Shown here in pieces: positions 33,532 through 38,755 of a DNA stretch of 64,000 bases. The notes under the pieces are model-generated. The model was not told where the DNA came from and searched no databases. It saw nothing but the letters and a program-made list of their open reading frames with translations. The stretch is from a gamma proteobacterium symbiont of Taylorina sp. Its GTDB lineage: Bacteria > Pseudomonadota > Gammaproteobacteria > GRL18. Both the position numbers and the translations under genes were made by a program. The stretch is from assembly GCA_025655455.1 (NCBI GenBank), contig JAHXIV010000007.1, positions 62,001-126,000 on the forward strand, read 5' to 3'. Position 1 is the first letter of the stretch. Each line of letters begins with the position of its first letter.

Positions 33532-34516
33532 GGGATAATAAATTTTCTACCGCTTTTTGAGGGGAGAGATTTTGATAAAGAACTTTATAAACCTGCTCAA
33601 CAATAGGCATTTCTATGCTTTGTTCTTGTGCCAGGAGAAAAATTAATTTGGCAGCCTGAATGCCTTCTACAACCTGACCAATTTCAGCTTGAGCTGTTTT
33701 AATAGCCATTCCCTTGCCAATAGCCAGCCCCATACGGCGATTTCTGGATTGGTCGTCTGTACAAGTCAGCAATAAATCACCTAAGCCGGAAAGTCCCATC
33801 AGAGTTTTATTTTTACCGCCCATTTTTTCTGACAGGCGATTAATTTCATGCAGAGCGCGGGTGATCAGTGCTGATCGAGTATTTGCACCATAGCCGAGAC
33901 CATCGGCAATGCCTGCAGCAATCGCCATGACATTTTTTGCGGCACCGCCCACTTCAAGTCCTGTCATATCTTGACAGACATAGGGACGAAATGTGTTGTT
34001 GCAAAGCAGTTTTGCCAAATGTTGAGCATAATCCAGATTTTTTGCAGCTATTGTGACTGCTGTTGGTAAGCCCATAGCAACCTCACGGGCAAAGGTTGGG
34101 CCGGAGATAACAGCCTGTTGTGCAATATCTGGAAAAATATCTGCAACAACCTGATGAAGAAAATGGTGGGTCTCAGCCTCCAGGCCTTTAGTGGCCCAGC
34201 ATAAGTTTTGAAGTTGTGGACGATATTCTTTTACTTTGACTAAAGTATCACGAAAAGCATGGCTGGGTACAACCACCAGGAGTTCTTCACATTGCTGTAG
34301 AGAGTTTTCAAGTTGATAGCTTAGATGAAGATTTTTCGGGAATGAAAAGCCGGGAAGAAAAAAAGAATTTTCACCTGCTGCCTGCATGGCAGTTATTTTT
34401 TCTTTATTTCTACCCCACAAAAGCACTTCATGACCATTTTTTGCTAATAAAATGGCAAGTGCAGTTCCCCAGGAACCAGCACCCAGCACAGTTATTTTTT
34501 GCTTAGTGAATGGCAT
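33509..34516 (-). CDS. gpsA: Glycerol-3-phosphate dehydrogenase (NAD(P)+)
   Basis: Makes sn-glycerol-3-phosphate for phospholipids. 335 residues from [11 protein letters not shown]-binding [14 protein letters not shown] at the N terminus, catalytic Lys in [14 protein letters not shown], and [11 protein letters not shown]. Longer in-frame starts inside secB would add up to 47 residues unlike the family. The chosen start overlaps the secB end by 14 bp. Order secB-gpsA is conserved from E. coli. Confidence 0.94.
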
Positions 34517-35003
34517 CAGCTGCTGTTTTCTCATCACTTTGTTGTTCTTGCTGCTGTTGCAAATGTTGTGAATAAATTGCATCAAAATTAACAGGTTGTA
34601 ATATGAGCTGAGGGAAACCACCCTTATTAACCAGATCAGAAACCATTTCTCTGGCATAAGGAAAAAGTATATTGGGGGCGTAACTCCCTAACATGCCATC
34701 TAATTGAACTTTTTCAAAGCCAGTCACATTGAAAATTCCGGCCTGTTGTACTTCAGCCAGAAAGGCGGTTTTTTCACCGACTGTTACGGTGGCAGTCACT
34801 GTTAAAACGACTTCAAAAACACCTTCTGCAAGAGGGTTAATGGCTGTATGTAAATCAACTTTTAGTTCTGGCTCCCATTTTTCAGTAAATAGTTTCGGGG
34901 AGTTGGGTGTTTCAAAAGAGATATCTTTAGAATAAATTTTTTGAATAATGAATTGTTGTTTAACTTCTTCGTTATTCGCTTCGTTTGCTTGTTCTTCCGC
35001 CAT
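34503..35003 (-). CDS. secB: Protein-export chaperone SecB
   Basis: Cytosolic tetrameric chaperone (166 residues) that holds precursors unfolded for SecA. Conserved segments: [63 protein letters not shown] (described by ends) and QPVNFDAIY. The C-terminal tail is Gln-rich ([14 protein letters not shown]), and the Glu/Asn-rich N terminus is longer than in E. coli. GGAATAAC is upstream of the ATG. Between trxC and gpsA. Confidence 0.95.
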
Positions 35004-35030: not shown

Positions 35031-35468
35031 TTATAAGTGACTTTGTATCCACTGGATTAAACTATTTTTATCCATTGCACCAGCCTGTCGGGCAATTTCT
35101 TTGCCGTGATGAAACAATGCAATAGTGGGGATGTTTCTAATTGAAAATTGGGCTGCAAGTGATTGTTCCTGCTCTGTATTCACCTTGACCAGTTCTAATT
35201 GATGTTGAAAATAATGAGCTGTTTGTTCGAAAACCGGTGCCATCATTTTGCAGGGACCACACCAGGGAGCCCAAAAATCAACCAGTACAGGAATTTCGGT
35301 TTTTTGAATATGCTTATTAAATCGAATGGCATTCAATTCAATTGGTTTACCGGTTAATAATAACTGTTTACATTTACCGCAGTGAGCACCACTGGAGGCT
35401 GATTTTACCAAAGGAATTCTATTAATACCATCACAATGAGGGCAGACAATATGAACTGAATCAGTCAT
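35031..35468 (-). CDS. trxC: Thioredoxin 2 with N-terminal zinc finger
   Basis: 145 residues. An N-terminal zinc-binding pair of CxxC motifs (Cys9, Cys12, Cys30, Cys33) is followed by a thioredoxin domain with active site WCGPC (Cys70, Cys73) and cis-Pro region IRNIPTIALF. This is the TrxC type, which is more oxidation-resistant than TrxA. It lies between grxC and secB, an insertion compared with the E. coli order yibN-grxC-secB. Confidence 0.94.
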   Translation of the reverse strand: MTDSVHIVCPHCDGINRIPLVKSASSGAHCGKCKQLLLTGKPIELNAIRFNKHIQKTEIPVLVDFWAPWCGPCKMMAPVFEQTAHYFQHQLELVKVNTEQEQSLAAQFSIRNIPTIALFHHGKEIARQAGAMDKNSLIQWIQSHL

Positions 35469-35493: not shown

Positions 35494-35763
35494 TCAAATA
35501 AACAGCATGTCATCTAACTTGCCTGCTGATTCTGTCGCAAACAAATCGTCACAACCACCGACATGAGTTTCACCAATAAAAATTTGCGGGACAGAGCTTA
35601 TACCATTGCTCTTTTGTATCATTTCCTTACGTAATTCAGGCTGGCGACCCACATCGATTTCAGTATAGTTAACTTCCTTAGAATTCAGAAGACTTTTAGC
35701 TCTGACACAATAAGGACAATATTGTGTCAGGTAAATTGTAATTTCTGCTTGTGTTTTTGGCAT
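35494..35763 (-). CDS. grxC: Glutaredoxin 3
   Basis: 89 residues, a dithiol glutaredoxin with active site CPYC (Cys16, Cys19), GSH-binding TVP-like SVPQIFIG and GGCDDLFA segments. Reduces glutathione-mixed disulfides. The gene starts right after a leader repeat (35764-35838) that fills the gap to the rhodanese gene; here the repeat stops before the coding part, and the N terminus is MPKTQAE, not MFDK. Confidence 0.93.
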   Translation of the reverse strand: MPKTQAEITIYLTQYCPYCVRAKSLLNSKEVNYTEIDVGRQPELRKEMIQKSNGISSVPQIFIGETHVGGCDDLFATESAGKLDDMLFI

Positions 35764-35838: not shown

Positions 35839-36264
35839 TTAGATCTTATTCATGGGCAGGTTATCATTTTCCCAGGCCAGTACACCTCCGCGAATATTAT
35901 GTACTTTTTCAAAACCATTTTTCTTTAATATACCACAGGCTCTGCCTGAACGACTGCCAGAGCGACATCCTAAAATAACATTTCTATCTTTATATTTTAT
36001 TAATTCGTCAACACGTGAAGATAAGGTACTCAAAGGAATGTGTATAGAATCTTTAATGTGATTGGACTGAAATTCTTTATCTTCTCTGACATCTACAATA
36101 ATACCACCTGTTTCGTGGCTCATTAATTGTACAGCCTGTTGCGGGCTAATATCATTGGTAGATTTTAAAAAAGAATTAATGATCATACCTAACAGGAAAA
36201 ACCACATTAGAATCATTACCCAGTTTACTTCAATAAATACGTTCAATTGTTCCATTTTTGACAA
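35839..36264 (-). CDS. yibN: Membrane-anchored rhodanese (YibN-like)
   Basis: 141 residues: one N-terminal transmembrane helix (about 14-33) and a cytoplasmic single rhodanese domain with AVQLMSHETGGIIVDVRED, and active-site loop ILGCRSGSRSGRA (Cys100). The family transfers or carries sulfane sulfur. Same position as yibN in E. coli, upstream of grxC. A TCAGATAT-TC-ATATCTGA palindrome (36292-36309) lies 28 bp upstream and could be an operator of the nearby repressor. Confidence 0.9.
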   Translation of the reverse strand: MSKMEQLNVFIEVNWVMILMWFFLLGMIINSFLKSTNDISPQQAVQLMSHETGGIIVDVREDKEFQSNHIKDSIHIPLSTLSSRVDELIKYKDRNVILGCRSGSRSGRACGILKKNGFEKVHNIRGGVLAWENDNLPMNKI

Positions 36265-36380: not shown

Positions 36381-36426
36381 GAAAAAAGTATCTTCCCTGT
36401 TGAGTGACTATCCACGAACAGGGAAG
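36381..36426 (-). terminator. Rho-independent terminator of the ArsR-family gene
   Basis: CTTCCCTGTT (36392-36401) and AACAGGGAAG (36417-36426) make a perfect 10-bp GC-containing stem with a 15-base loop. On the minus strand the stem is followed by ATACTTTTTTC. It begins 19 bp after the arsR-type stop codon, so the repressor gene is a separate transcript from the rhodanese operon. Confidence 0.85.
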
Positions 36427-36444: not shown

Positions 36445-36801
36445 TCAACTTAAGGGTTGAATGGTGCAGAAAACTTCTCTCATCATGCCAATCAAACGTA
36501 GAGTTCTGGCATCACCAACACGGTAGTAGACCCGGTTTGCATCTTTTCGAGAAGCTAAAATACCCTTGTCTCTAAGGATGGCCAGATGCTGTGAAATATT
36601 ACTCTGGGAAGTACCTACTTTTTCAACAATATCCTGAACGCTGATTTCTTCATCACCCAGAGTACATAAAATTTTTAAACGAAGAGGATGTGACATCGCT
36701 TTGAGAGAGCGGGAGGCACGATCAATATCTTCATCGCGTGACATTAAATCCATCTTCATATCACAACAATCATTATCATTGAGATCAAATTGACTGGTCA
36801 T
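36445..36801 (-). CDS. ArsR/SmtB-family repressor with SqrR/BigR-type cysteine pair
   Basis: 118 residues, winged helix (about 28-105) with LKAMSHPLRLKILCTLGDEE, recognition helix TSQSNISQHLAILRDKG and wing ASRKDANRVYYRV. Cysteines are 12, 13, 46 and 112. Cys46 (in helix 2) and Cys112 (in the last helix) are 66 residues apart, the same spacing as Cys41 and Cys107 of SqrR, the persulfide sensor of Rhodobacter; E. coli YgaV is also paired with a rhodanese (YgaP). No ArsR-type metal ligand set (ELCVCDL) is seen. I infer a persulfide-responsive repressor controlling itself and the neighbouring thiol genes. Confidence 0.85.
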   Translation of the reverse strand: MTSQFDLNDNDCCDMKMDLMSRDEDIDRASRSLKAMSHPLRLKILCTLGDEEISVQDIVEKVGTSQSNISQHLAILRDKGILASRKDANRVYYRVGDARTLRLIGMMREVFCTIQPLS

Positions 36802-37186
36802 ATATTAACTCTTCCCATAACGTGTTTTGTTCTTTAGCAAAGCGCTTTGCTAAAATTTCTGCAATGTGTATTACTTTCAGATTCCACTCTAGACTATATC
36901 ATAAAAACATTATACTATAATATTACTAAAAACCACAAAATTATTAATAAATTAGAATAAATTTTATTTGCCTATGGCTATTAGAACTTGAAAGAATAGT
37001 GATTTAAGTGCATAATATACAACATGCTTTTACCCTGAAGATGAAATTTTTTACTGACGTATTTCTATTTTTAAATATGCCAGCAAAGCAACAGCAACAG
37101 CAATAACAATATTCAGCTGAAGGCTTCCAATTTAGCTGATGGATCCCAACTTTTCAAACTCTATATTAAGAATCAATAAACAACTC
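36802..37186. promoter_or_regulatory. arsR-family / gpmI divergent region
   Basis: About 385 bp. Near the repressor it holds a perfect 22-bp palindrome (36833-36854). Further right, ATTATACTATAAT (36909-36921) is a 13-bp palindrome whose minus-strand half is a TATAAT -10 candidate, with no clear -35. ATTTTATTTGCCTATGGCT (36962-36980) vaguely recalls the leader repeat. The rest is AT-rich; no gene is seen. Confidence 0.45.
36833..36854. promoter_or_regulatory. 22-bp perfect palindrome, candidate repressor operator
   Basis: TTTAGCAAAGC-GCTTTGCTAAA is a perfect 22-bp inverted repeat with no spacer, 32 bp upstream of the ArsR-family start codon. Its size and place fit a dimer or double-dimer operator for autoregulation. 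The central AAAGC/GCTTT also resembles a word in the leader repeat (GCAAAGCGACAGC), so a repeat origin is possible. Confidence 0.65.
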
Positions 37187-38755
37187 ATGTCAACACTACC
37201 CAAACCCTTAGTACTTATTATTCTGGATGGCTGGGGCTATTCAGAAGACCCTGAACACAATGCAATTCTCGAAGCCAGGACACCTGTCTGGAATTCTATC
37301 TGGAAAAAATACCCTCATACTCTGATAAAAGCCTCGGGTGCTGAAGTCGGTTTGCCTGCAGGGCAAATGGGTAATTCAGAAGTAGGACATCTTAATATTG
37401 GCTCTGGAAGGGTTGTTTATCAGGAATATACCCGGGTTAGCCGTGCTGTGCGTACAGGTTCCTTTTTCAGCAACTGTACCTTGACCGAAGCAGTTGATAA
37501 AGCACTAGAAAATAATTCAGCCTTACATATCATGGGTCTTCTTTCCTCCGGCGGAGTGCATAGTCATGAAGACCATATTCATGCCATGGTTAAACTGGCG
37601 GCTGAGCGAGGACTGGAAAAAATATACTTGCATGCATTTCTTGATGGACGCGATACTGCACCTAAAAGTGCTGAAGATTCAATAAATGCAATGCAGACTT
37701 TTTTTGATGAATCGGGACGTGGACAATTTGCCTCTGTTATTGGTCGTTATTATGCGATGGACAGGGATCATCGCTGGGAACGCATTAAATCAGCCTACGA
37801 TGCGATGGCTGATGGGGAGAGTGAATTTACCGCAAAAACAGCATTAAAGGCACTTGAAAAAGCGTATAATCGAGATGAATCCGACGAATTTGTTCAGGCC
37901 ACTTGTATTATACCGGCTGGTCAGAAAGCGATTCAGATGGAAGATAATGATGTTATGGTGTTTATGAATTATCGTTCTGATCGTGCACGCCAGATTACCC
38001 GTCCATTTATTGAAGAGAATTTTGAAGCGTTTAAACGAGGTCGTCATTTTAAACTGAGTCAGTTTGTCAGCCTGACAGAATATTCCTCCAAATTTGATGT
38101 ACCTGTTGCCTTTCCTCCCGAGCGCTTAACCAATGTCTTTGGCGAATATATTTCAAATCTTGGTTTACGTCAGCTGCGTATTGCTGAAACTGAAAAATAT
38201 GCCCATGTAACTTTTTTCTTTAATGGTGGAGAAGAAGAACCTTTTCCTGATGAAGATAGAATTCTGGTGAATTCACCTGACGTGGCCACTTATGATTTAC
38301 AACCGGAGATGAATGCCCCAAAGTTAACAAAAAAACTAATTAAGGCGATTAAATCTGATCAATACGATACGATTATTTGTAATTTTGCCAATCCGGATAT
38401 GGTCGGGCATACGGGCAACGAAAAAGCAACAATTAAGGCAATTGAAGCACTGGATACCTTTATCAAGCAGATCTGTAAGGTCATTATCGATGTTGGTGGT
38501 GAGTTATTATTGACGGCCGATCATGGCAATGCAGAACTGATGCTGAATAAAAATACCGGCCAGGCACATACAGCACATACCTGCAATCCGGTACCTTTTG
38601 TTTATATTGGACGTGAAGCAGTGATGGAAGAAAGCGGTGCTTTATCCGATATTGCACCAACAATGTTATATCTAATGGGGATTGAAGTTCCTCCGCAAAT
38701 GAATGGTCGTTCTCTGGTCACATTATCAGATGATATTGAAGAACAAAAAAAATAA
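37187..38755 (+). CDS. gpmI: 2,3-bisphosphoglycerate-independent phosphoglycerate mutase
   Basis: Glycolytic enzyme interconverting 3- and 2-phosphoglycerate with two Mn ions. 522 residues from MSTLPKPLVL; alkaline-phosphatase-type metal site: ILDGWGY, catalytic Ser64 in MGNSEVGH, DGRDT, then C-terminal CNFANPDMVGHTG and LTADHGNAE. The longer in-frame ATG (37139) would add a 16-residue extension. No good ribosome-binding site is visible for either start. First gene of gpmI-envC-ctpA-yibQ-yajL, as in E. coli gpmM-envC-yibQ. Confidence 0.95.
   Translation: MSTLPKPLVLIILDGWGYSEDPEHNAILEARTPVWNSIWKKYPHTLIKASGAEVGLPAGQMGNSEVGHLNIGSGRVVYQEYTRVSRAVRTGSFFSNCTLTEAVDKALENNSALHIMGLLSSGGVHSHEDHIHAMVKLAAERGLEKIYLHAFLDGRDTAPKSAEDSINAMQTFFDESGRGQFASVIGRYYAMDRDHRWERIKSAYDAMADGESEFTAKTALKALEKAYNRDESDEFVQATCIIPAGQKAIQMEDNDVMVFMNYRSDRARQITRPFIEENFEAFKRGRHFKLSQFVSLTEYSSKFDVPVAFPPERLTNVFGEYISNLGLRQLRIAETEKYAHVTFFFNGGEEEPFPDEDRILVNSPDVATYDLQPEMNAPKLTKKLIKAIKSDQYDTIICNFANPDMVGHTGNEKATIKAIEALDTFIKQICKVIIDVGGELLLTADHGNAELMLNKNTGQAHTAHTCNPVPFVYIGREAVMEESGALSDIAPTMLYLMGIEVPPQMNGRSLVTLSDDIEEQKK

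Follow-up and report, generated by a model that had tools for sequence, protein, structure and literature searches.

A candidate persulfide-responsive ArsR-type repressor beside yibN, shared by dsrA-bearing Gammaproteobacteria

Introduction

What is sensed by the ArsR-type regulator encoded near a membrane rhodanese gene in a gammaproteobacterial symbiont of Taylorina sp., and which genes does it control? The window analysed is a stretch of 64,000 nucleotides (contig JAHXIV010000007.1, positions 62,001–126,000). Sulfur sensing by gammaproteobacterial sulfur oxidisers is poorly known, and the sulfane-sulfur repressors of sulfur oxidation in the literature searched are alphaproteobacterial. The reading preferred here, and considered probable, is an autoregulated, persulfide-responsive repressor with a dimeric ArsR fold, a Cys46–Cys112 bridge and local control.

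Cysteine pair of the repressor

The arsR gene (36445–36801, minus strand) encodes a predicted ArsR/SmtB-fold repressor of the persulfide-sensor type, 118 amino acids in length. Cysteine occurs at exactly four positions: 12, 13, 46 and 112. In the AlphaFold2 model (mean pLDDT 80), Cys46 lies inside helix 39–48 (alpha2) and Cys112 one residue past helix 98–111 (alpha5). Conservation among homologues and the model mark Cys46 (codon 36664–36666, minus strand) and Cys112 (codon 36466–36468, minus strand) as the first and second cysteine of a proposed polysulfide bridge. The two are 66 residues apart. A first-pass annotation had placed them in helix 2 and the last helix at this distance, as is borne out by the ORF translation and the model; the spacing that it gave for SqrR also holds, the PDB chain of Rhodobacter capsulatus SqrR having cysteines at positions 42 and 108.

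Both cysteines are among only 12 invariant columns of 47 aligned homologues (52–94% identity to the window protein), and the spacing is 66 in 104/104 close homologues; to judge by sequence, the pair is therefore no chance occurrence. Identity among the 80 closest loci, drawn from many genera, is 79–95%. A spacing of exactly 66 is not essential, since insertions lie between the two cysteines in orthologues L157, L159 and L162, and Escherichia coli YgaV has a spacing of 67 through one insertion.

Phylogenetic position and nearest relatives

The protein scores 47.9 bits against PF01022 (cut-off 22), which places it in the ArsR/SmtB superfamily in agreement with the fold, and 86.2 bits against the generic ArsR metalloregulator model NF033788 (cut-off 55). 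It is not a member of the BigR equivalog NF040642, where 79.7 bits fall far under the curated cut-off of 155. Best PDB sequence matches are BigR (4.5e-18), HlyU, YgaV, NolR and SqrR, with all metal sensors behind. Identity is 36–41% to BigR, HlyU, SqrR and YgaV, 23–32% to SmtB, NmtR, CzrA and CmtR, and 38% to CadC over 73 residues. The solved folds closest to the model are HlyU (nearest), NolR, SqrR, BigR and YgaV.

The phylogenetic comparison with SqrR, BigR, YgaV and metal sensors, suggested earlier as a check, was run as a maximum-likelihood tree of 63 rows, limited by long branches and an alignment of only 90 columns. One clade (97/95) unites the window protein with its orthologues and the paralogues of about 60% identity; this clade is sister to BigR/SqrR/YgaV/HlyU/NolR and not nested among them. 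SmtB, NmtR, CzrA, CadC, CmtR and SrnR fall outside this joint sensor group; the window protein does not take a position with the first five of these metal sensors. It groups instead with the characterised reactive-sulfur sensors, with support of 96/80 for the assemblage including NolR; an AU test of a single clade without NolR gave p 0.116. NolR stands among the sensors, yet its aligned segment is without the alpha2 cysteine, so the ligand cannot be read from tree position alone. The reactive-sulfur-sensing ArsR group is defined by a cysteine pair in alpha2 and alpha5 (PMC10509353), and conservation and the AlphaFold2 model place such a pair in the window protein.

Each characterised relative matches in part. 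SqrR is alike in fold, in the two cysteine positions with 66 spacing, in having an N-terminal-tail cysteine and in 39% identity, but belongs to a separate clade and is without the cysteine doublet described below. BigR of Xylella fastidiosa is the top PDB sequence match and has the same cysteine pair, but is only 36% identical, and the BigR equivalog score is not reached. YgaV has the highest identity of the characterised relatives (41%) and the same pair, but differs in spacing, and the gpmM–yibN position of E. coli is without a regulator. HlyU of Vibrio has the closest fold and the same pair, but is 37% identical and activates hemolysin transcription (PMC10509353). sHdrR and SoxR of Hyphomicrobium denitrificans, compared by description only, are two-cysteine ArsR repressors of a sulfur oxidiser (PMC12423496, PMC10451225), but are alphaproteobacterial and act at sox and shdr clusters.

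Search ranks, the miss of the BigR model, the sister-clade tree and the fold matches together place the protein in an orthologue group of its own, of reactive-sulfur-sensing type, as neither a BigR nor a SqrR orthologue. This group is an uncharacterised new branch of a known sensor family and, judged by sequence, fold and tree, a separate gammaproteobacterial sister clade of the persulfide sensors, in no named family. Literature outside subscription papers yielded no description of the orthologue group and nothing on an ArsR gene beside yibN.

Distribution

A class-wide sample of 276 gammaproteobacterial genomes was searched, an orthologue being called at E at most 1e-27. The arsR orthologue is carried by 142/276 genomes. 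By raw counts irrespective of relatedness, it is present in 88/89 dsrA carriers and in 105/115 soxB carriers, and dsrA is found in 1/134 genomes without it; neither dsrA nor soxB is found in 28 of the 142 orthologue carriers. The orthologue keeps one chromosomal position in nearly all the dsrA-bearing Gammaproteobacteria sampled. Four genomes of about 1.0–1.1 Mb (L151–L154) keep the regulator with both cysteines, and all four have dsrA; gpmI and envC are lost from the block in these genomes, ctpA adjoins, and arsR stays. The window's own genome carries soxB as well as two dsrA genes.

Co-occurrence with dsrA is better support for a sulfur role than the gene neighbourhood. The points of novelty are the conservation and the near-complete overlap with dsrA carriers, and the orthologue group is a concrete, unusually conserved candidate for which both a sensing pair and an operator are predicted. 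A larger proposal would make it the sulfur oxidisers' ancestral, class-wide sulfane-sulfur sensor in Gammaproteobacteria, fixed at the gpmI/envC–yibN position, kept in dsrA genomes of about 1 Mb and coupling sulfur oxidation to a thiol-redox and protein-export housekeeping block; this is tentative and rather doubtful.

Both dsrA genes of the window's own genome are full-length and over the family cut-off (C25:33103-34314 and C18:74427-75638).

Candidate operator

Upstream of arsR lies a candidate operator or promoter core, ATTATAGTATAATGTTTTTAT (36901–36921, minus strand), conserved across families and nearly unique per genome. Ten-mers of ATTATTGTATAATGTTTT recur in the region before arsR, at up to 51/88 loci where about 0.4 would be expected. 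A single close site, before arsR, is present in the window's own genome. In 15 other genome records (two pairs apparently identical) the best site, with 0–2 mismatches, is just upstream of arsR, and the remaining sites have three mismatches and occur at about the control rate. A related form is present exactly once, before arsR, in 6/10 Chromatiaceae genomes, with no control hits; the other 4/10 have no match to the related-form pattern. Thus in all 21 genome records with the element the best site precedes arsR, and no other site exceeds the control rate. Loci with a divergent neighbour other than gpmI still have the element, which links it to arsR.

The element contains TATAAT and may be an operator that covers the -10 box, or no more than the promoter core. 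Because it is nearly unique in each genome searched, the predicted action is likely autorepression with local control and no broad regulon. A broad regulon acting through this element was rejected: in the window's own genome, the 15 records and the 10 Chromatiaceae, only the site before arsR exceeds the control rate. Alternatively, the element could be a strong promoter core only, with the true operators elsewhere, more diverse and serving a wide sulfur-oxidation regulon. The TATAAT fits this, as does the presence of the gene in nearly all dsrA carriers, and wide regulons are reported for YgaV and for sHdrR/SoxR (PMC9774250, PMC12423496); a generic promoter is, however, unlikely to hold about 18 bases near-identical from family to family or to be unique in GC-rich genomes. 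This alternative bears on the targets, leaves room for persulfide sensing and is judged unlikely.

The reported SqrR/YgaV consensus, ATTC-N8-GAAT, has no close match in the upstream element. As an operator in the window it was also rejected, with no exact match and with one-mismatch sites at chance frequency; one of these lies near arsR (36943–36958). A short form of the element, ATTAT-N3-ATAAT, is no more frequent in the window than by chance, so the argument rests on the long conserved form only.

Sensing mechanism

Conservation, fold and tree support persulfide sensing through Cys46–Cys112, as does the joint occurrence with the dissimilatory sulfur genes dsrA and soxB. The first-pass annotation had reached the same reading, and to this extent it stands; its arguments from the neighbourhood and from Cys12–Cys13 are weaker than stated there.

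The dimeric state, chemistry, DNA binding, repression and targets are predictions, and the bridge, DNA release and derepression are modelled on relatives (PMC10509353, PMC12423496, PMC10451225, PMC9774250). The reduced dimer would bind the AT-rich site over its own promoter (36901–36921) and hold down arsR transcription. The signal would be a build-up of persulfides or of other sulfane sulfur, as might occur in Dsr/Sox sulfur oxidation. A polysulfide (tetrasulfide) bridge would then link Cys46 to Cys112 within a subunit, by analogy with these relatives, and the bridged repressor would let go of the DNA, so that arsR transcription rises. The downstream genes yibN, grxC and trxC, which encode proteins for the transfer or reduction of sulfane sulfur, would benefit only through read-through, limited here by a terminator-like hairpin.

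A general thiol-redox sensor, responding to peroxide or disulfide through an ordinary Cys46–Cys112 disulfide, is improbable. The pair is a dithiol, grxC and trxC are close by, and an oxidised cysteine was earlier reported for HlyU (discussed in PMC10509353). Yet persulfides react with HlyU, which has the pair in the same helices, whereas H2O2 and GSSG do not, and the H2O2-sensing ArsR protein RexT uses two alpha3 cysteines (PMC10509353). Helix 55–62 of the window protein contains no cysteine, let alone the two proximal ones of the RexT type, and the co-occurrence with dsrA is very tight.

Gene neighbourhood

Downstream of arsR on the minus strand follow a yibN-type membrane rhodanese gene (35839–36255; PF00581; position as in E. 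coli yibN), with one N-terminal hydrophobic segment and a CRSGSRS active-site loop, then grxC for glutaredoxin 3 (35494–35763; TIGR02181 over cut-off), a trxC-type thioredoxin gene (35031–35468; NF008229 over cut-off) and secB (34503–35003; NF004393 over cut-off). The divergent neighbour on the plus strand is gpmI, encoding phosphoglycerate mutase (37139–38755; TIGR01307 over cut-off). At most loci with enough flank, arsR is divergent from gpmI, envC or ctpA and is followed by yibN, (grxC), (trxC), secB and gpsA.

The yibN-grxC-secB-gpsA genes beside gpmI are a housekeeping block. E. coli has this gpmM / yibN-grxC-secB-gpsA block without any regulator, so thiol-related neighbours alone do not show what the regulator senses, and rhodanese and glutaredoxin genes at a yibN locus are no evidence by themselves. 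The adjoining rhodanese, glutaredoxin and thioredoxin genes had been taken to fit persulfide sensing. Their presence is confirmed, but they lend the reading little, given the E. coli block and a terminator-like hairpin predicted by folding in the gap between arsR and the rhodanese gene (36392–36426, minus strand; 10-bp outer stem, -17.9 kcal/mol, followed by a T run). A stricter terminator scan did not list this hairpin. An operon with the rhodanese gene was rejected: the gap is 189 bp here, with the hairpin in it, and is at most 60 bp in only 24/97 loci. A perfect palindrome between the two genes, TCAGATATGAATATCTGA, is not kept in the family and was likewise set aside.

That the protein is mainly a repressor of divergent gpmI, passing the sulfur state to glycolysis, would suit an element located in the arsR–gpmI intergenic region and the many genomes with gpmI as divergent neighbour. 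In Chromatiaceae, however, the divergent neighbour is envC and a related element still precedes arsR, and the genomes of about 1 Mb have retained arsR beside ctpA without gpmI or envC there; control of gpmI is accordingly very improbable as the main role.

Tail cysteines

Cys12 and Cys13 (codons 36763–36768, minus strand) lie within a disordered N-terminal tail of the AlphaFold2 model, with pLDDT below 50 at residues 7–19. The doublet is lineage-limited: it occurs in 18/104 loci, all of the window's family. One cysteine of the doublet is left in L084, L101 and L102, and the second copies in L104–L106 and most outside orthologues have no tail cysteine. The first-pass annotation had described the extra tail cysteines as absent from SqrR. 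This is correct for the doublet and not for a single tail cysteine: the SqrR tail has Cys9, present in 6o8k and absent from the C9S entries through the crystallographers' mutation, so only the doublet is unusual. The pair thus exists as described, but the metal or thiol sensing proposed for it is no more than an unsupported possibility, since the pair is family-limited, sometimes reduced to one cysteine and located in a disordered tail.

A metal or metalloid sensor with ligands from the tail pair, as with the N-terminal cysteines of CadC, would accord with the ArsR fold, the NF033788 score and a cysteine doublet in an acidic tail, but is the least credible reading of all, as the doublet is family-limited and missing in most outside orthologues, no alpha3 cysteine ligands of the ArsR/CadC type are present, the tree and the closest folds both speak against a metal sensor, and no metal transporter is nearby.

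Related regulators

Apart from the arsR protein, no ArsR paralogue with the cysteine pair was detected in the window's own genome. Its nearest paralogue there (about 38% identity; L187:3632-4285, contig C18) is a protein of 218 aa in which an ArsR domain (PF01022) is fused to a rhodanese domain (PF00581). The fusion is without the Cys46/Cys112 pair, and one of the two dsrA genes is on the same contig.

Congeners L104, L105 and L106 have a second regulator copy of 78–80% identity, without tail cysteines. In L104 and L106 the second copy precedes a thioredoxin-fold gene and a gene for a large protein without a Pfam match. In L106 the copy (about 80%) retains a similar upstream element and is separated from the thioredoxin-fold gene by 18 bp, an arrangement in keeping with control of thiol chemistry. 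L171–L186 form a clade of about 60% identity with both cysteines, mostly at other loci with mixed neighbours. Apparent RND efflux parts, named by sequence inspection, adjoin the gene in at least two members, L179 and L186.
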